Source of the DNA: Tenericutes bacterium MO-XQ
GTDB lineage: Bacteria; Bacillota_I; Bacilli_A; Acholeplasmatales; Acholeplasmataceae
NCBI GenBank assembly: GCA_002838185.1
Contig: CP017948.1
Span: 620,001-684,000, forward strand
Reading direction: 5' to 3'
Length of the DNA: 64,000 nt
The position numbers and the translations under genes are program-made. Positions 21,204 through 55,579 of this stretch are shown piece after piece (within the stretch, counting starts at the first letter, position 1; each line of letters starts with the position of its first letter). Under the pieces are notes generated by a model. That model saw nothing but the letters and a program-made list of their open reading frames with translations. It was not told where the DNA came from and did no database searches.

Positions 21204-21542
21204 AATGTTTCTTTGGTTTTTTCACTGCTTGTGTGTATAAACATAAAATGGATGTTTTTATGTTTCTAGAGTACACACAAGACCCTATTTTCGAGCAATA
21301 TGGTGCACTCAACGCAGATTGAATGAGACAACATATTATTAAAAGTGACGGAAAATGGACAAACCTAATTGGACAAACAATTATATTGTTTTTATAGTAT
21401 AATTGTAATAATCAGTTATCTCTTTATGACTTATCAAAATATGAACTTTTAGCATTATTTATAGTAAACTTAGTCTAGAGGTTGTAGTAAAGTTAGTCTA
21501 GAGGTTATCGAAAACAGTGATAAAGTCCATAAAGACAAGACA
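21204..21542 (+). repeat. A-type iterated-motif module A1
   Basis: The long form of family A. It starts with a hairpin-forming stretch (GTGTGTATAAACATAAAA and a complementary half), then a conserved segment from CAACGCAGATTGAATGAG, a TATAGTATAAT promoter-like box, two copies of TTAGTCTAGAGGTT 23 bp apart, and the end AAAGACAAGACA (one base changed from the usual AATGACAAGACA). Confidence 0.85.
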
Positions 21543-21566: not shown

Positions 21567-21962
21567 ATGAGTATATTTTGGAAAACACAACCTAGAAATG
21601 TTTTCAGCGGCAAAAATAAAGCAAAAAAATATTTGAAAGCTATTAATAGTGAAAGTAATCAGCATACAGACTTATTGCGATTGTATGTTAGTGGTGAATT
21701 AGAAGTAGAACTACAAAAATACAGTTTCGATCTTATAGAAGTTTTTGTAGATAAACTTAGAAAAGATAATATAGATTTACAAGTTAATTTGCGAGTTAAA
21801 AACAAAAATATTGGGTTAGATTTATTTAGGGATTATTATGAACTTTGTTTTTATTTATCTGGTTGTGATCCTGAAGAAGTAGAGAACTCAATTATAAGAT
21901 ATGAGTATATTGATTTTGATTTAGATGTATTGCTGAAAAAGATTGAATCAAAACTGCGTTAA
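21567..21962 (+). CDS. Hypothetical protein, 131 aa
   Basis: I do not recognise the family. It is a soluble, charged protein with no membrane segment and begins 24 bases after module A1 with a good ribosome site (GGAAGG). The next gene, disrupted by IS3, is close behind and may have been in one unit with it. Confidence 0.5.
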   Translation: MSIFWKTQPRNVFSGKNKAKKYLKAINSESNQHTDLLRLYVSGELEVELQKYSFDLIEVFVDKLRKDNIDLQVNLRVKNKNIGLDLFRDYYELCFYLSGCDPEEVENSIIRYEYIDFDLDVLLKKIESKLR

Positions 21963-31812: not shown

Positions 31813-32236
31813 AATGGGGCCTAAACCCTATAAAGCACTGTTGCAATAAAGAGATTAACAACATAATTAGAAGTAAAAACCAATAAATATGTTATTAAGG
31901 TATTTTAGACAGATTTTAACCATGTAAAGGTAAACATATTTCATGCAATTTTGATGTTTCTTTAATACATACAAGGTCGATTTTGCAAGCAATACGGTTT
32001 TTTCAACGCAGATTGAATGAGACAACATATTATTAAAAGTGACGGAAAATGGACAAATCTAATTGGACAAACAATTATGCTGTTTTTATAGTATAATTGT
32101 AATAATCAGTTATCTTTTTATGACTTATCAAAATATGAACTTTTAGCATTATTTATAGTAAACTTAGTCTAGAGGTTGTAGTAAAGTTAGTCTAGAGGTT
32201 ATCAAAAATAGTGATAAAGTCCATAATGACAAGACA
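31813..32236 (+). repeat. A-type module A2 (long form)
   Basis: It shares its upstream part with A5, including a hairpin around CAACCATGTAAGG-like sequence, then the common core from CAACGCAGATTGAATGAG. TGGACA (32064) and TATAGT (32087) could form an outward promoter with 17-base spacing. Two TTAGTCTAGAGG motifs lie 23 bp apart, and the module ends AATGACAAGACA. A degenerate C-type right arm precedes it at 31774-31805. Confidence 0.85.
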
Positions 32237-37849: not shown

Positions 37850-38015
37850 TCTTAATATATGGTGAGCGAGATTAGATATAAACTCATTAACTTGTTCTTG
37901 TAGAAAATGAAATATGAACTTTTAGCATCATTTATAGTAAAGTTAGTCTAGAGGTTGTAGTAAAGTTAGTATAGAGGTTATCAAAAACAGTGATAAAGTC
38001 CATAATGACAAGACA
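37850..38015 (+). repeat. A-type module A3 (short form)
   Basis: The upstream part (ATATGGTGAGCGAGAT) is shared only with A6. Two TTAGT(C/A)TAGAGG motifs lie 23 bp apart, and the end is AATGACAAGACA. Confidence 0.85.
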
Positions 38016-38195
38016 TATTGAAAGCACCAATCCATTAAGATGAATGCATTTCTGAAAAACCTAAATGAATCAAAAGAAAAACTTAAAGACTGGGACAAAT
38101 ATGTATGGATGCTTATGGTTGAAAGTGCAGTTGTTCATAGAGATACAAGCATTACATTCAAATTGAAAAACGGAAGAGAAATTAAAGCAACATAA
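38016..38195 (+). pseudogene. Large serine recombinase C-terminal fragment
   Basis: The frame SIKMNAFLKNLNESKEKL followed by VVHRDTSITFKLKNGREI is the typical tail of Firmicute large serine recombinases. It abuts the end of module A3 with no start codon of its own domain. Confidence 0.8.
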
Positions 38196-40485: not shown

Positions 40486-40825
40486 ATATGTTTCTTTGAT
40501 TTTTCTGTGCTTGTGTGTATAAACATAAAAATGGTCAATTTGATGTTTCTTGAGTACACACAACACCCTATTTTCGAGCAATATGGTGCACTCAACGCAG
40601 ATTGAATGTGACAACATATTATTAAAAGTGACGGAAAATGGACAAACCTAATTGGACAAACAATTATGCTGTTTTTATGGTATAATTGTAATAAACAGGG
40701 ATTACTTTATAACCTATCAAAAAATGAACTTTTAGCATTATTTATAGTAAAGTTAGTCTATAGGTTGTAGTAAAGTTAGTCTAGAGGTTATCAAAAACAG
40801 TGATAAAGTCCATAATGACAAGACA
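40486..40825 (+). repeat. A-type module A4 (long form)
   Basis: Close to A1 over its whole length, including the GTGTGTATAAACATAAAA hairpin half. Two TTAGTCTA(T/G)AGG motifs lie 23 bp apart and the end is AATGACAAGACA. Confidence 0.9.
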
Positions 40826-41212
40826 CATTTTATAGATGAATGTACTTAATATCTCTGAATCAAGTTCATCGATGACTAAATTCTTTTTACCTAAAATCTC
40901 ACCTATTTTATCCATACGTTTTTTGGTATCATAATTTTTTACGTGTTCAAGTTCAAGCTTGTTAATCTCTGCTGTTAGAACTTTAAGTCGATCCGAGTAT
41001 TCTCTATACTTGGTATTAAATATTGATTCTGGAATATCTGGTTTTTTTACCTTTGTATCAATTAGATTGGATAATGCTATTTCGTTTTCGTCTCTTTCTA
41101 ATGTTAACTTTTCAATGATACTTTCAACATCATCAACCTTGATGGTTGATTTAATTACCTTTTGAATGGTTGTCATGATATCCAGATCTTTTAAGAAGAC
41201 TTTGTATTTACG
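40826..41212 (-). pseudogene. Serine recombinase fragment cut at module A4
   Basis: The minus-strand frame KVFLKDLDIMTTIQKVIKST continues with a long coiled coil (LKVLTAEINKLELEHVK) and ends DELDSEILSTFIYKM, the pre-C-terminal region of large serine recombinases. It is open to about 41212 on the 5' side and then enters module A4. The catalytic domain and zinc ribbon are missing. Unlike the other fragments it keeps a middle part and points left. Confidence 0.65.
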
Positions 41213-43089: not shown

Positions 43090-43542
43090 TAAACAGTTAA
43101 GTAAAGGGGATTTATACCCTATAAATCAATCTTTTGATGTAGAAATCAACGATGGTACTTTGATCTAATAATTTAATAGTAAAAATCAAAAAATATGTTT
43201 CTTTGGTATTATAGACGGTTTTCAACCATGTAAGGGGAAACATATTTTAGCCGTTTTTGATGTTACTTCAATACACACAAGGTTGATTTTGCAAGCAATT
43301 TGGTTTTTTCAACGCAGATTGAATGAGACAGCATATTATTAAAAGTGACGGAAAATGGACAAACCTAATTGGACAAATAACTATGCTGTTTTTATAGTAT
43401 AATTGTAATAATCAGTTATATCGTTATGACTTATCAAAATATGAACTTTTAGCATTATTTATAGTAAAGTTAGTCTATAGCTTGTAGTAAAGTTAGTCTA
43501 GAGGTTATCAAAAACAGTGATAAAGTCCATAATGACAAGACA
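43090..43542 (+). repeat. A-type module A5 (long form)
   Basis: It matches A2 along its length, including the ACCCTATAAA start and the CAACCATGTAAGG hairpin region. Two TTAGTCTA motifs lie 23 bp apart, and it ends AATGACAAGACA. A terminator hairpin follows (43554-43584). Confidence 0.85.
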
Positions 43543-43553
43543 TATAACAAGCA

Positions 43554-43584
43554 TAGGTTTGATACAAAGGTATCGGACCTTTTT
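43554..43584 (+). terminator. Hairpin with T-run after A5
   Basis: GGTTTGATAC pairs with GTATCGGACC around four bases and is followed by T residues. The GGTTTGATAC half resembles the left end of long C modules. Confidence 0.7.
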
Positions 43585-44025: not shown

Positions 44026-45392
44026 TAGTGTAAAATATTTTGTGTAAATGAAAAACTGAATAAAATTTAAAAAGGAATCTCACTTTAGTATAATAGAGTT
44101 GTCGAAAAACCACTATACAAAGGAGATCCCTCATGAATGATTTTACAACAGAACTCTTTAAAACGCTACTCGAAGGTAAAGATATCACAGAAATTTTTAG
44201 ATATCATGTCGAATGTGCAGTCAATCAACTGCTTCAATACGAGCTCAGAGAATTTCTTGACTATGATAAATATGATCGTAAAGGATTCAACTCAGGTAAT
44301 AGCCGAAACGGCTATTATGAACGCACCTTGAAGACTCAATACGGTGACTTAATCTTAAAGATACCAAGAGATAGAACCGGTGAGTTTGAGAATCAGACCC
44401 TTACACCTTATAAGAGACAGAACGACACCGTTGAATCGATGATTATTCATCTCTATTCAAACGGGATGACAACTGAAGAAATATCACGCATCATCGAGAA
44501 AATGTATGGCCATCACTACACCAAACAGACGGTTTCTAACATTACAGCTGCAGTGGTAGGAGATATCCAAGCATTTAATCATAGAGTATTATCTAAACGC
44601 TATGCTGTAATTTATCTAGATGCTACCTACATACCTGTAAGACGTGATACGGTCACTAAAGAAGCTTTATACTTCGCTTTAGGAATCACACCCGAAGGGT
44701 ATAAAGAAATCCTTTCATACAGCCTATTTCCAACCGAATCTGCGCATAACTGGGAGATTATCTTATCCGATTTGAGAAGCCGTGGTGCTGAGGAATCCTT
44801 GCTGTTTGTCACGGATGGTCTTACAGGGATTAAAGATGCGATCTCAAATGTGTTCCCTAAAGCTAAACACCAATCATGCTGGGTTCATTTGGCTAGAAAT
44901 GTAAGTCATGCTGTAAGAGTGAAAGATAGATCTGAAGTGTTAAATGATCTAAAGACGGTCTACACTCAAGAGTCAGTGGAAACTGCTGAAGAAAAACTTG
45001 ATACATTCATACAAACGTGGCATAAGAAATATCCTAAAGTAACAGAAAGATTCAAGAATAATCCATCTCTATTTACCTTTTTGTCTTTCCCAAAACCGAT
45101 TAGGGCGTCAATCTATACGACCAATCTGATTGAGGGTTTCAATAAGCATTTAAAACGTTATACAAAGCGTAAGGAACAGTTTCCCAATGAGGATTCACTC
45201 ATCAGATTCATCGGTACTTATGCAGGTGACTACAATCAAAGATTCCAAATGAGAATCCATAAGGGATTTAAGCTTGTCACTGCAGAACTGAATGAAATGT
45301 TCAATTAAGCATCGCGCTCAAAAATCTAAAAGCACTAAAGAGAGTTCTTAATACTTTAATTCAATTCATTTACACAAAATTCTTGACACTAC
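44026..45392 (+). mobile_element. IS256-family insertion sequence
   Basis: The left end TAGTGTAAAATATTTTGTGT and the right end complementary to TAGTGTCAAGAATTTTGTGT are inverted repeats that continue into TAAATGAA. One transposase gene fills the element. I see no clear 8-9 bp target duplication. Confidence 0.85.
44133..45308 (+). CDS. IS256-family (Mutator-like) transposase
   Basis: The 391-residue protein has the family pattern: an N-terminal region with RNGYYERTLKTQYGDL, first Asp in IYLDATYIPV, second Asp in FVTDGLTGIKDAI, the CWVHLARN motif and the Glu in TTNLIEGFNKHLKR. It looks intact. Confidence 0.92.
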   Translation: MNDFTTELFKTLLEGKDITEIFRYHVECAVNQLLQYELREFLDYDKYDRKGFNSGNSRNGYYERTLKTQYGDLILKIPRDRTGEFENQTLTPYKRQNDTVESMIIHLYSNGMTTEEISRIIEKMYGHHYTKQTVSNITAAVVGDIQAFNHRVLSKRYAVIYLDATYIPVRRDTVTKEALYFALGITPEGYKEILSYSLFPTESAHNWEIILSDLRSRGAEESLLFVTDGLTGIKDAISNVFPKAKHQSCWVHLARNVSHAVRVKDRSEVLNDLKTVYTQESVETAEEKLDTFIQTWHKKYPKVTERFKNNPSLFTFLSFPKPIRASIYTTNLIEGFNKHLKRYTKRKEQFPNEDSLIRFIGTYAGDYNQRFQMRIHKGFKLVTAELNEMFN

Positions 45393-46758: not shown

Positions 46759-46906
46759 TTTTGATATGTGTTCCTCTAATATCATTTTAACAATCTTAAG
46801 CTTAAAGTCAGTTGTATAGTGATTTGTCATCTTTTTTCTCCTTGTCTTAATTATATTATACATCATTATCTACAAAGGGGGGGAGCGTGTCCTGTTTTTT
46901 CATAGC
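46759..46906 (-). mobile_element. IS3 left-end fragment
   Basis: On the minus strand the left end TGCTATGAAAAAACAGGACA leads to a ribosome site (AAGGAG) and the first codons of orfA (MTNHYTTDFKLKIVKMILEE), near identical in layout to the intact element at 22198. It is cut where the malic enzyme fragment begins. Confidence 0.8.
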
Positions 46907-47019: not shown

Positions 47020-47967
47020 ATGTTTGATGTTAACTACGTTTTTAAATATAATTCATTATCAGAACATGATATTAATAATCTAAGAAATAGTAAATTATTT
47101 TTAAGAACAGCGACCAAGTTTAATGATGTTTTTGATTCTACACCATATTACTCAGAAGAAATATTTTTGAAAATGCTGAAGAATCATGTTGATGAATTTG
47201 GAATGAATATTCCAGGAATGAGAAACTTCACTGATTTGTCATATCAAGATCAGTTTGAAAAATTTAAACTATACTTTAGGAATAATTATGACTCTACATT
47301 AAAAGACTCAGGACTAATCACTTGCTTTTCGAAAGCAAGTAACAACAATATAATGTGGGTTAGATATGCAAAGGAGTATGAAGGAGCTATATTTGTATAT
47401 GATAAAGATAAGTTAAAAAAATCTGCAATAGACAATCTGATGGATTTAAAAAGAAAGGGATTATTTAATATCCCTGATAATGTTCTTAGTAGAGGTGTTT
47501 GTTTAGAAGCGGTGAAGTATACTGAATTTCGTGCTGATATAAGTAGTGAGTTAGAAGAAACACTTAAATTCGTTTCTAAGCATGGGTATATTAATGATTT
47601 GAGTGATCCGAAATATAAAGAAGTTCATATGGATGATCAAGAGTTTAATGGAGTAACTAATAAAATGTTTTTTTATAAAACTAAAGAATGGGAATATGAA
47701 AAGGAAGTACGATTAGTTATACATAATTATTTCCCTGAAAAAGCAATTCCACATACAGATGAAGGTAAAAGTTTGTTGCTGACAATAAAGCCAGAAGCCG
47801 TAATTTTAGGATTCAAAACACCACAGACAATTGTAAAAAAAGTTATTAATATTTGCAAAGAACAAAATATATCAATGTATGGATCAGGACCTTATTATTT
47901 TGATAGAAAATGTGTAATCAAGGTCGAACCACTAAAAAATCAATTTATTAATGAAATGTTAAAATAG
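47020..47967 (+). CDS. DUF2971 domain protein
   Basis: The 315-residue protein shows the DUF2971 pattern: LRNSKLFLRTATKFNDVFDS near the N-terminus, CFSKASNNNIMWVRYA in the middle and KTKEWEYEKEVRLVI near residue 225. Family members often sit in defence islands, but their activity is unknown. It has its own ribosome site (GAGAGG) and leads a compact four-gene block in one direction. Confidence 0.75.
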   Translation: MFDVNYVFKYNSLSEHDINNLRNSKLFLRTATKFNDVFDSTPYYSEEIFLKMLKNHVDEFGMNIPGMRNFTDLSYQDQFEKFKLYFRNNYDSTLKDSGLITCFSKASNNNIMWVRYAKEYEGAIFVYDKDKLKKSAIDNLMDLKRKGLFNIPDNVLSRGVCLEAVKYTEFRADISSELEETLKFVSKHGYINDLSDPKYKEVHMDDQEFNGVTNKMFFYKTKEWEYEKEVRLVIHNYFPEKAIPHTDEGKSLLLTIKPEAVILGFKTPQTIVKKVINICKEQNISMYGSGPYYFDRKCVIKVEPLKNQFINEMLK

Positions 47968-48015
47968 AACATATTTAATAATATTTGTCTTAAAACATTT
48001 ATAGGAGGTAAACAG

Positions 48016-48927
48016 ATGATAAGGAATAAAGGAAGTTTTATCGTAGAAGAACTAAGCGAGTATGTTGTTTTTGATTTAGAAACAACAGGCCTAAGTCCAG
48101 AATATGATGAAATAATAGAATTTTCTGCTTGCCTTGTTATTAATAATGAAATTGTTTCAAGATATGAAACTTTAATCAAACCAGAATATGGAATTTCACC
48201 TTTTATTGAAGAACTTACAGGGATTAGAAATGATATGCTTGAGGATAAGCCTAAAATTGACGAAGTTTTGCCAAGCATATATGATTTTCTTAAAGATAAA
48301 GTACTACTTGGACATAATGTTCACTTTGATCTTAATTTCTTGTACGATGCTTTTAATAAGTATCTAAATCTTGAACTTAACAATGATTATGTTGATCTTT
48401 TGCGATTGACGAGAAAAGTATATCCTGAATATAAAACCCATAGACTTGAATTTTTGTCAAAAGAATTAAAAACTACAAACAAGCCTACACATAGAGCATT
48501 AAATGACGCACTTACTACATATGAAATATATGAATTGTGCAAACGATTCACTAAAGAAAAGAGCATTACATTTTCCGATTTGTTTCAGACTAGTTATCTG
48601 ACTGTAAATGATATTAAGTCTACAGTTAATGCGGAAGAAGATCATATTTTAAATGGTGAGATTTTTGTTTTTACTGGAACACTTGAAAAAATGGACAGAA
48701 AAAGTGCTTGGGAGTTGGTCGTGAAAAATGGTGGTGATATTGCTGATGGTGTTTCTAAAAAGGTGAACTATCTTGTTCTTGGAAATGGCGATTATCATCA
48801 AAGATTAAAAGGTGGAAAAAGCAATAAGATGAAAAAAGCAGAGGATTTAATTTTAAAAGGAAATGACCTGCAGATAATATCTGAAAATGTTTTTTATGAT
48901 ATGATTTACTTATATGATAATAAATAA
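48016..48927 (+). CDS. DnaQ-like 3'-5' exonuclease with BRCT domain
   Basis: Residues about 15-175 form a DEDDh exonuclease: FDLETTGLS (Exo I), GHNVHFDLNF (Exo II) and HRALNDALTTYE (Exo III). Residues about 215-300 form a BRCT domain (GEIFVFTGTLEKMDRKSAWE, GVSKKVNYLVLG). This pair of domains resembles the epsilon/DinG-like accessory exonucleases. It follows the DUF2971 gene by 48 bases with AGGAGG. It may degrade or process invading DNA, which is inference. Confidence 0.85.
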   Translation: MIRNKGSFIVEELSEYVVFDLETTGLSPEYDEIIEFSACLVINNEIVSRYETLIKPEYGISPFIEELTGIRNDMLEDKPKIDEVLPSIYDFLKDKVLLGHNVHFDLNFLYDAFNKYLNLELNNDYVDLLRLTRKVYPEYKTHRLEFLSKELKTTNKPTHRALNDALTTYEIYELCKRFTKEKSITFSDLFQTSYLTVNDIKSTVNAEEDHILNGEIFVFTGTLEKMDRKSAWELVVKNGGDIADGVSKKVNYLVLGNGDYHQRLKGGKSNKMKKAEDLILKGNDLQIISENVFYDMIYLYDNK

Positions 48928-48982
48928 TTACGATAAAAAATTAACATGTAAATTCTCTTACATGTAAATATTAGGAGGATAA

Positions 48983-49945
48983 ATGGCAAATACAACTGAA
49001 AGACAAGGGATAGGACATTGTTTAAAAATGGCATCATCATTTGATTGGATGTTTCGTGAACAGCCAATAGATGATATTGGCATTGATGCACACATGGAAA
49101 TAGTTGAAAAATCTGGAAAACCTAGACAACTGCTTGCTGTTCAAATTAAATCTGGTGCAAGTTGGTTTCGAGAACAAAAAGAGAAACATGTGATTTTTCG
49201 TGATATTAATGAAAGGCAATATAACTATTGGACTACTAACACTCTACCATGTATTGTTGTATTATATAATCCCCTCACTGAAGAGTGCATTTGGCAAAAA
49301 TTGACAAAGGAAACTATTGAAAGAACAATGAAAGGAAAAGGGAAAGGCTTTTTTGTGAAAGTTCCTATAGACCAAATTTTCTTAAATGATATATCACAAG
49401 AAAGACTACTATCTTTTACTAATTTACCTGAACATATTACAAATTATAACTTTCTATTATCACAAAAAGTTTTTATGCAAATAATCAATCAAGGTGGAGA
49501 AATCAAACTGCATTCTACAGAATGGATAAACAAGAGTAGTGGGAGAGGAGAAACCGAGTTGATTGTTGATGATGGAGAAACGGTGAAAAAATATCCCTAT
49601 CCATATTGGTTTCCATTCACTTCATACACAAAGGTTTTTCCAAAGGTATTTCCATGGGCAGATTTTTCTGCAGATGAAGACTTCTATGAGTTCGAAGATG
49701 AAGCTAATTGGCGTGAATATCATTGTTACTATGATAAGGAAGATGATGAGTGGCTAGTTGTTGGAGATACATTTGAAGATTACAAAAAGAGTTTATCACC
49801 AATGCGAAGTATTGTTCATTCAGGAGAAGTTGCTGAATACATGTTGATACTTAAATTAAATGATTTAGGTAAGTCCTTTCTTTTGGTTGATGATTTTGTT
49901 TCTAGAAAACAACCATACGTTAATGTAAGACCTAGTGATAAGTAA
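48983..49945 (+). CDS. DUF4365 protein, nuclease-like fold
   Basis: The 320-residue protein starts with a PD-(D/E)XK-like pattern: DDIGIDAHMEIVE followed by LLAVQIKSG (D...QxK), as in DUF4365 proteins found in defence systems. The rest is of unknown type, rich in aromatic residues (YPYPYWFPFTSYTKVFPKVF). AGGAGG lies in front of the ATG. It is the third gene of the block. Confidence 0.75.
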   Translation: MANTTERQGIGHCLKMASSFDWMFREQPIDDIGIDAHMEIVEKSGKPRQLLAVQIKSGASWFREQKEKHVIFRDINERQYNYWTTNTLPCIVVLYNPLTEECIWQKLTKETIERTMKGKGKGFFVKVPIDQIFLNDISQERLLSFTNLPEHITNYNFLLSQKVFMQIINQGGEIKLHSTEWINKSSGRGETELIVDDGETVKKYPYPYWFPFTSYTKVFPKVFPWADFSADEDFYEFEDEANWREYHCYYDKEDDEWLVVGDTFEDYKKSLSPMRSIVHSGEVAEYMLILKLNDLGKSFLLVDDFVSRKQPYVNVRPSDK

Positions 49946-49971
49946 TTAATTATAATTAAGGAGGATTTATT

Positions 49972-50373
49972 TTGACTAAAATAAAACTTAATGAAAAAAG
50001 TGAAGAAATATTAATCAAAAATAGAGAATATGAACTTGACCCTACAGAGGAGTATATTATTGATCTCGAATACGAGTTAGATTATCAACTAGCAATAATT
50101 CAAAGTTTTAACATTATGGGTCCAGCACCAGCCATTAAAAATTATCACGCATGGTTAAAGCAAAATAAATTTAGTGTAGAGTTACCGAATCCTACAAACG
50201 AATTTGTTGCATCTTTTTATGGTGTAAGACCACTTTGGAAAACAGCTTATTCACAAGGGATTGTTGTCAGGGCTATTAACGAAGATGATTACTATATAGT
50301 TATGGAGTGTAGTCGAGAAAACAAAGGTTACAAATATACAAAAATTATTTTAACATTGGGTGGTTGTATGTAG
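49972..50373 (+). CDS. Hypothetical protein, last gene of the block
   Basis: The 133-residue acidic, soluble protein has no motif I recognise. It starts at TTG after AAGGAGGA, 26 bases from the preceding stop, so it is probably co-transcribed and co-functional with the three genes before it. Confidence 0.55.
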   Translation: MTKIKLNEKSEEILIKNREYELDPTEEYIIDLEYELDYQLAIIQSFNIMGPAPAIKNYHAWLKQNKFSVELPNPTNEFVASFYGVRPLWKTAYSQGIVVRAINEDDYYIVMECSRENKGYKYTKIILTLGGCM

Positions 50374-50410: not shown

Positions 50411-50553
50411 AGCTTGATATATGGTGAGCGAGATCAGAGTTAAACTGATGAACTTACTTATTACATAATTAAATATGAACTTTTAGCATTATTTATAGTA
50501 AAGTTAGTCTAGAGGTTATCAAAAACAGTGATAAAGTCCATAATGACAAGACA
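50411..50553 (+). repeat. A-type module A6 (short form)
   Basis: It shares the ATATGGTGAGCGAGAT start with A3. Only one TTAGTCTAGAGG motif is left, so one 23-bp unit has been lost, and it ends AATGACAAGACA. It begins about 35 bases after the four-gene block. Confidence 0.85.
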
Positions 50554-50830: not shown

Positions 50831-50866
50831 TTTTATTTTCTCGGACAAATAATAGGAGGAAATCAA

Positions 50867-51391
50867 ATGAAGGATTTAAAAGAACACATCGATGATGTAC
50901 AAAGAAAATGTAGTTACTATTTTAAGAACACAGATTTGCTGCTTCAAGCTTTCACAAGAAAGTCTTATTCAGCTGAATTTGGTGGGGAAAACAATGAGGT
51001 TTTAGAGTTCTTAGGCGATAGAGTTTTGGATTTTTATGTAACCAAAGTCATCGCTGAAAGATATGGATTTTTCAAATCTCAAACGGATACATATGATGAG
51101 CAAGAAGATAACGATGAATATTGCATTAAGGCTCATCGAAATGAGCAAGATTTTACTGAGCTGAAGAAAGAAATCGTAAGTAATGCGAATCTTGCTAGAA
51201 GAATTGAAGAGTTAGGTTTCAAGTCGATGATGTATTTGGGTCAAAGTGATATTGATAATCAAGTATGGAATCAAGAAAAGGTTAGAGCTGATCTATTCGA
51301 AGCCATTCTTGGTGCTATCGCAATCGACAGTGATTGGGATCCAGATGAGCTCCAAAACTCTGTGGAATTCATGCTTCAAATTGATGATTAA
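50867..51391 (+). CDS. RNase III catalytic domain, stop before dsRBD
   Basis: The 174-residue frame has the RNase III signature NEVLEFLGDRVLDFYV and the second metal-binding region DLFEAILGAIAIDSDWD, with a longer insert (SQTDTYDEQEDNDEY) between. ATG 50867 follows AGGAGG. It ends with TAA, but the following frame continues in register into a dsRNA-binding domain after 7 codons. This is an accessory RNase III, not the usual rnc context. Confidence 0.8.
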   Translation: MKDLKEHIDDVQRKCSYYFKNTDLLLQAFTRKSYSAEFGGENNEVLEFLGDRVLDFYVTKVIAERYGFFKSQTDTYDEQEDNDEYCIKAHRNEQDFTELKKEIVSNANLARRIEELGFKSMMYLGQSDIDNQVWNQEKVRADLFEAILGAIAIDSDWDPDELQNSVEFMLQIDD

Positions 51392-51412
51392 TTACATGAT
51401 GTAGAAGATGGC

Positions 51413-51682
51413 ATGGATGAGCTAAAAGAAAATCTAACACAGGATAATGCAGTCAGCACACTTAAAGAATTGGCTGAAAGTGGCAGATGCTCCATACCAC
51501 AATACGAGCTTCCTGATGAGCAAGTTTATGACGATGGTGAGTATTGGTGGTCATGCACCTGCTATGTTCGCAGCTGGTCCATTCAAAAAACAGCACTTTC
51601 TAAGTCGAAAAAGGGTGCCAAAAGGTATGTCGCTTATCTCGTTTTGTGTGACTTCTTTGGTATTGAACCAGAAGAAGAATAA
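51413..51682 (+). CDS. dsRNA-binding domain separated from RNase III by an in-frame stop
   Basis: The 89-residue frame (NAVSTLKELAESGRCSIPQY to GAKRYVAYLVLCDFFG) is a double-stranded RNA-binding domain with the conserved KKGAKR region. It is in the same frame as the RNase III domain, with one TAA between. It could be translated separately from ATG 51413, though only a weak ribosome site (GTAGAAG) is seen, or the pair is one gene with a nonsense mutation. Confidence 0.65.
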   Translation: MDELKENLTQDNAVSTLKELAESGRCSIPQYELPDEQVYDDGEYWWSCTCYVRSWSIQKTALSKSKKGAKRYVAYLVLCDFFGIEPEEE

Positions 51683-55449: not shown

Positions 55450-55475
55450 TTGTGAAAAATTAATATATAAATAAA

Positions 55476-55579
55476 ATATGAACTTTTAGCATTATTTATA
55501 GTAAAGTTAGTCAAGAGGTTGTAGTAAAGTTAGTCTAGAGGTTATCAAAAACAGTGATAAAGTCCATAATGACAAGACA
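55476..55579 (+). repeat. A-type module A7 (shortest form)
   Basis: It starts at ATATGAACTTTTAGCATT, has two TTAGTC motifs 23 bp apart and ends AATGACAAGACA. The next base is inside a cadA reading frame. Confidence 0.9.

Follow-up and report, generated by a model that had tools for sequence, protein, structure and literature searches.

The stretch of 64,000 nucleotides analysed here (the window) contains a probable two-gene antiviral module, g3-g4, and not the four-gene defence operon that the initial annotation had proposed for this region. Because of the conserved active site of g3 and the genomic neighbourhoods of the pair, a nuclease-effector defence module is the best reading, and on balance we lean towards regarding g3-g4 as a mobile two-gene unit, composed of a DREN-type nuclease effector and a sensor or regulator encoded by g4. 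The four ORFs of the block are as follows:

47020..47967, plus strand: g1, DUF2971 protein of 315 aa (Pfam E 2.5e-8; PADLOC PDC-S31 1.4e-24)
48016..48927, plus strand: g2, DnaQ-like DEDDh exonuclease with a C-terminal BRCT domain, 303 aa (RNase_T 1.8e-41; BRCT 7.9e-6; phrog_192 1.2e-51)
48983..49945, plus strand: g3, DUF4365 protein of 320 aa (Pfam E 1.6e-29)
49972..50373, plus strand: g4, protein of 133 aa with a TTG start and no family match

The arrangement described in the initial annotation was borne out: all four ORFs lie on the plus strand, are separated by 48, 55 and 26 bp and have strong ribosome sites of the GGAG type, and the flanking IS3 fragment corresponds to a 24-codon IS3 OrfA remnant on the minus strand upstream of the block (46759-46830). 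The scores listed above also confirm the labels DUF2971 for g1 and DUF4365 for g3 and the likely DEDDh exonuclease with a BRCT domain in g2, and g4, originally listed as unknown, gave no domain match. Scans of the block for promoters and terminators yielded signals at chance (shuffle) level only, and co-transcription of the four ORFs appears plausible from their layout.

A single functional operon, representing a new four-gene defence system, would be consistent with the common strand, the short gaps and the good ribosome sites in this strain, and in Ruminococcus bromii (locus L008) a different DUF2971 gene runs into the start of g3. However, the co-occurrence search recovered the whole set at none of the 11 other intact g3-g4 loci: tblastn detected no relatives of g1 or g2 at the ten loci from other species or on the faecal contig L019, and no other locus was found to hold more of the set than g3 and g4. 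tblastn did not match the DUF2971 gene of L008 to g1, and the two differ in their best PADLOC models (PDLC04993 for the L008 gene, PDLC04990 for g1). Relatives of g1 and of g2, searched for in 295 genomes, sit apart in other contexts, without a neighbouring partner from the set. The nearest g1 relative, from the same family as the host, is an interrupted gene with unrelated genes alongside. The close g2 relatives belong to repressor regions of prophages and plasmids. The best of them, from Campylobacter phages, a faecal contig and a plasmid of Pediococcus, have a repressor gene or an ImmA gene as neighbour, and not DUF2971 or DUF4365 genes; g2 shares the full-length architecture of these phage and plasmid DnaQ-BRCT exonucleases (phrog_192) at 37-41% identity. 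Conservation of the whole set was rejected because of the absent co-occurrence, which is the outcome that the initial annotation itself had named as speaking against its proposal, and we consider a four-gene system very improbable. The best explanation is that g1 and g2 landed beside g3-g4 in this strain as accessory genes independent of the pair.

The genes g3 and g4, on the other hand, are strictly linked. A scan seeded with g3 only, using one genome per species, gave 10 loci in 10 other genomes, and g4 was located directly downstream of g3 (−4 to +20 bp) in all 10, a pairing rate valid for the clade of close relatives that this seed search reaches. The faecal contig L019 also carries g3 followed by g4. 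Including the window, the distance from the g3 stop to the g4 start ranges from −4 to +26 bp, with an ATGA overlap in three loci. The hosts comprise Clostridia, Enterococcus and several Bacilli, and the g3 proteins are 62-74% identical to the window copy, those of Enterococcus and Clostridium reaching 72-74%. Over 12 loci, g3 and g4 diverge in step, their protein distances being correlated (Mantel r 0.81, p 5e-5). Purifying selection acts on both genes, with dN/dS values of about 0.05-0.4 in most close pairs. Because g4 homologues of 58-68% identity are present at 11 other loci and dN/dS is well below 1, g4 is a genuine gene, its TTG start notwithstanding.

Apart from the window's own genome, a search for g4 in 245 genomes across the phylum returned a single orphan copy, which has lost its start codon and lies next to a largely deleted g3. 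No g4 was found in plasmids and viral contigs, and the phage set contained it on one faecal contig (L019). Among 391 genomes sampled class-wide around genome G248, only G248 itself and one weak partial match were recovered, indicating that the pair is rare. The wide host range, the range of g3 identities and the neighbours differing from locus to locus argue for horizontal movement of the pair, and such spread is also suggested by the close similarity of the Enterococcus and Clostridium copies of g3, seen against the absence of g4 from nearly all of the 245 phylum genomes. R. bromii contains a second copy of g3 (L022), which lies beside a broken g4 and is changed at 9 otherwise invariant g3 positions, versus 0-5 such changes in the intact pairs. 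This change weakly hints at a mutual dependence of g3 and g4, but it concerns one locus, the genome contains a second, intact pair, and the decay may postdate the duplication.

Residues 1-143 of g3 represent a DREN/DUF4365 PD-(D/E)XK nuclease domain (PF14280, 1.6e-29, 103 bits versus a cut-off of 24), followed by a conserved C-terminal domain (residues 144-320). The g3 profile matches SPARDA DREN-APAZ chains in the PDB (6e-6), with the match ending at about residue 110 inside the nuclease domain, and the predicted structure retrieved SPARDA complexes first (Foldseek 6.8e-10), then I-Ssp6803I and Hjc more weakly; the AlphaFold models of g3 and g4 are of moderate confidence (pLDDT 68-69). The catalytic residues of NbaSPARDA are D41, Q60 and K62 (PMC12205087), with which D35, Q54 and K56 of g3 align, and these are invariant in every aligned family member. 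Profile match, fold match and aligned catalytic residues together substantiate the PD-(D/E)XK-like character initially ascribed to g3. The C-terminal domain contains the invariant residues W181, N183, K184, F223, P224 and W225 (WxNK…FPW family) and is common to proteins of 28-29% identity on proteobacterial plasmids and viral contigs. Distant full-length g3 homologues in other phyla are solo genes without a g4-like neighbour, so that the domain architecture of g3 as such does not require g4. Solo genes of the g3 family are also present on viral contigs (L018, L066, L068), and the one on L068 runs antisense to phage genes of a structural type, in the manner of morons, judging from the annotation.

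The g4 family shows a mean column identity of 77% and the invariant motifs KNYHAWL, PLWxTxYSQGIVV and a C-terminal GGC; the protein is mildly acidic (pI 5.1). It gave no match in Pfam, NCBIfam, PADLOC, PHROGs and PDB sequences, nor in PDB folds using the moderate-confidence model. A weak match of 7 members to PF24424 ('FNG'; best E 0.015, about 32 residues) was below the cut-off and was taken as chance. Judged by sequence, g4 probably represents a new family and an obligate partner of g3 within the sampled clade.

Among known systems, g3 resembles the DREN-APAZ protein of SPARDA in its N-terminal PD-(D/E)XK nuclease with a catalytic D...QxK. Unlike SPARDA, it has no APAZ match (Pfam, SPARDA chains) and a different C-terminal domain, and its partner in all loci is g4 instead of a short Argonaute. 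No Argonaute or Piwi match was detected in the window or its own genome, and with APAZ and Argonaute missing, g3-g4 was ruled out as a SPARDA system. PD-(D/E)XK enzymes of the I-Ssp6803I and Hjc types are weaker fold matches to the nuclease domain and differ from g3 in C-terminus and genetic context. In PADLOC, g1 matches PDC-S31 (DUF2971) and g3 gives weak partial matches to PDC-M02A, both of them candidate classes only, and g4 is in no PADLOC 2023 model. No described system with the g3-g4 pair was found in the literature naming DUF4365, a body of text with subscription papers and preprints mostly outside it. We therefore rate g3-g4 as a combination of a known effector nuclease and a new partner.

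The neighbourhoods, read for defence genes at a handful of loci, place g3-g4 among defence genes and mobile elements. At L019, the neighbours are LmuA-like MBL and protease genes (Lamassu-like) and FRG (PDC-S15); at L010-L012 a ThsB-like TIR gene (Thoeris-like), joined at L010 by an AAA_13/PrrC-like gene; and at L008 a type IIG RM gene and DUF2971 (PDC-S31). At L004, L009 and L013, the pair has Tn916-like or TopB/resolvase surroundings of a conjugative type, as assigned by eye. Of the defence role suggested initially, the part concerning g3-g4 is thus supported by the neighbourhoods. Two Lachnospiraceae loci contain related genes of 271 aa directly upstream of g3 (L006 700-1515, L007 5166-5981), that of L006 without a Pfam or PADLOC match.

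The window also contains a dispersed repeat of 60-190 bp located between gene sets, with all copies on the plus strand:

21371-21542, plus strand: dispersed repeat copy
32065-32236, plus strand: dispersed repeat copy
37910-38026, plus strand: dispersed repeat copy
40654-40828, plus strand: dispersed repeat copy
43371-43560, plus strand: dispersed repeat copy
50458-50553, plus strand: dispersed repeat copy, 85 bp past the g4 stop, marking a cassette border
55473-55579, plus strand: dispersed repeat copy

Its 3' border is sharp (...GATAAAGTCCATAATGACAAGACA), with unrelated sequence beyond, and the copy ending at 55579 joins sequence resembling the interior of a cadmium-ATPase gene. The genome contains 25 partial matches, concentrated at C1:641-689 kb and at C2:68-86 kb, and the repeat was found in 12 of 61 family genomes with up to 12 matches in one, bordering gene cassettes in related genomes as it does here; it had no plasmid match and no Rfam match. 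Possible explanations are a site of cassette recombination or the remnant of an IS end. After one copy lies a gene of unknown function coding for 131 aa (21567-21962), a homologue of which precedes the repeat in L087 (by eye), and another is located near the g1 relative in L062 (4551-4958); these placements suggest cassette shuffling. Further along, at 50864-51682, a heavy-metal resistance block is adjoined by a divergent second gene for RNase III (175 aa), after which comes a separate dsRBD-like ORF; another RNase III match is at C1:384959. A transposase ORF of 391 aa (44026-45391), IS256-like by eye, is bounded by 27-bp inverted repeats that are 89% complementary.

For the proposed defence module, we envisage that g3, in which a DREN-type PD-(D/E)XK nuclease is joined to a regulatory domain at the C-terminus, and its small partner g4 would be co-made, probably through translational coupling, and would form a complex. 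The nuclease is most likely latent at rest. An invader may be sensed by the C-terminal domain of g3, by g4 or by both, which would activate the nuclease, perhaps via oligomerisation as with DREN in SPARDA, where the isolated domain has no detectable activity and tetramerisation activates it (PMC12205087). Once active, g3 would degrade DNA or RNA, whether from phage, plasmid or host, and thereby act against phages. We tentatively extend this to a hitherto undescribed defence system of two components, with a SPARDA-type collateral nuclease under the control of a new, non-Argonaute sensor family consisting of g4 and the WxNK...FPW domain.

The pair may alternatively be a toxin-antitoxin or addiction pair, with g3 as a constitutively toxic nuclease and g4 as its inhibitor. 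Two strictly linked, partly overlapping genes with a small partner at −4 to +26 bp, the settings in mobile elements and the mildly acidic g4 are compatible with this, as are the finding that the only orphan is a g4 remnant without g3 and the presence of another g4 in the genome in which the g3 of L022 lacks an intact one. However, the orphan g4 has no start codon left, the solo full-length g3 homologues of other phyla argue against a necessity of g4, and an inhibitor is not obviously needed for a nuclease domain inactive in isolation (PMC12205087), so that an addiction pair appears rather unlikely. Because of the same inactivity of DREN alone and the solo g3 homologues, we distinctly, if not decisively, prefer g4 as a sensor or activator over an obligatory antitoxin. 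It is still less likely that g3 and g4 serve mobile elements in DNA processing, for example in entry or anti-restriction, and not in defence: several copies do reside within conjugative-type element cores (L004, L009, L013) and solo g3 homologues occur on viral contigs, but the copies at L008, L010, L012 and L019 are in defence islands outside such cores, with differing neighbours.

The four-gene claim is thereby corrected to a testable two-gene unit. If the proposed reading is true, DREN would be a reusable effector plugged into various sensing partners. The collateral activity of the DREN nuclease already attracts interest for nucleic-acid detection, and confirmation of g3-g4 would demonstrate an Argonaute-independent control of this enzyme; g4 would then define a small partner family unrecognised by the databases used.
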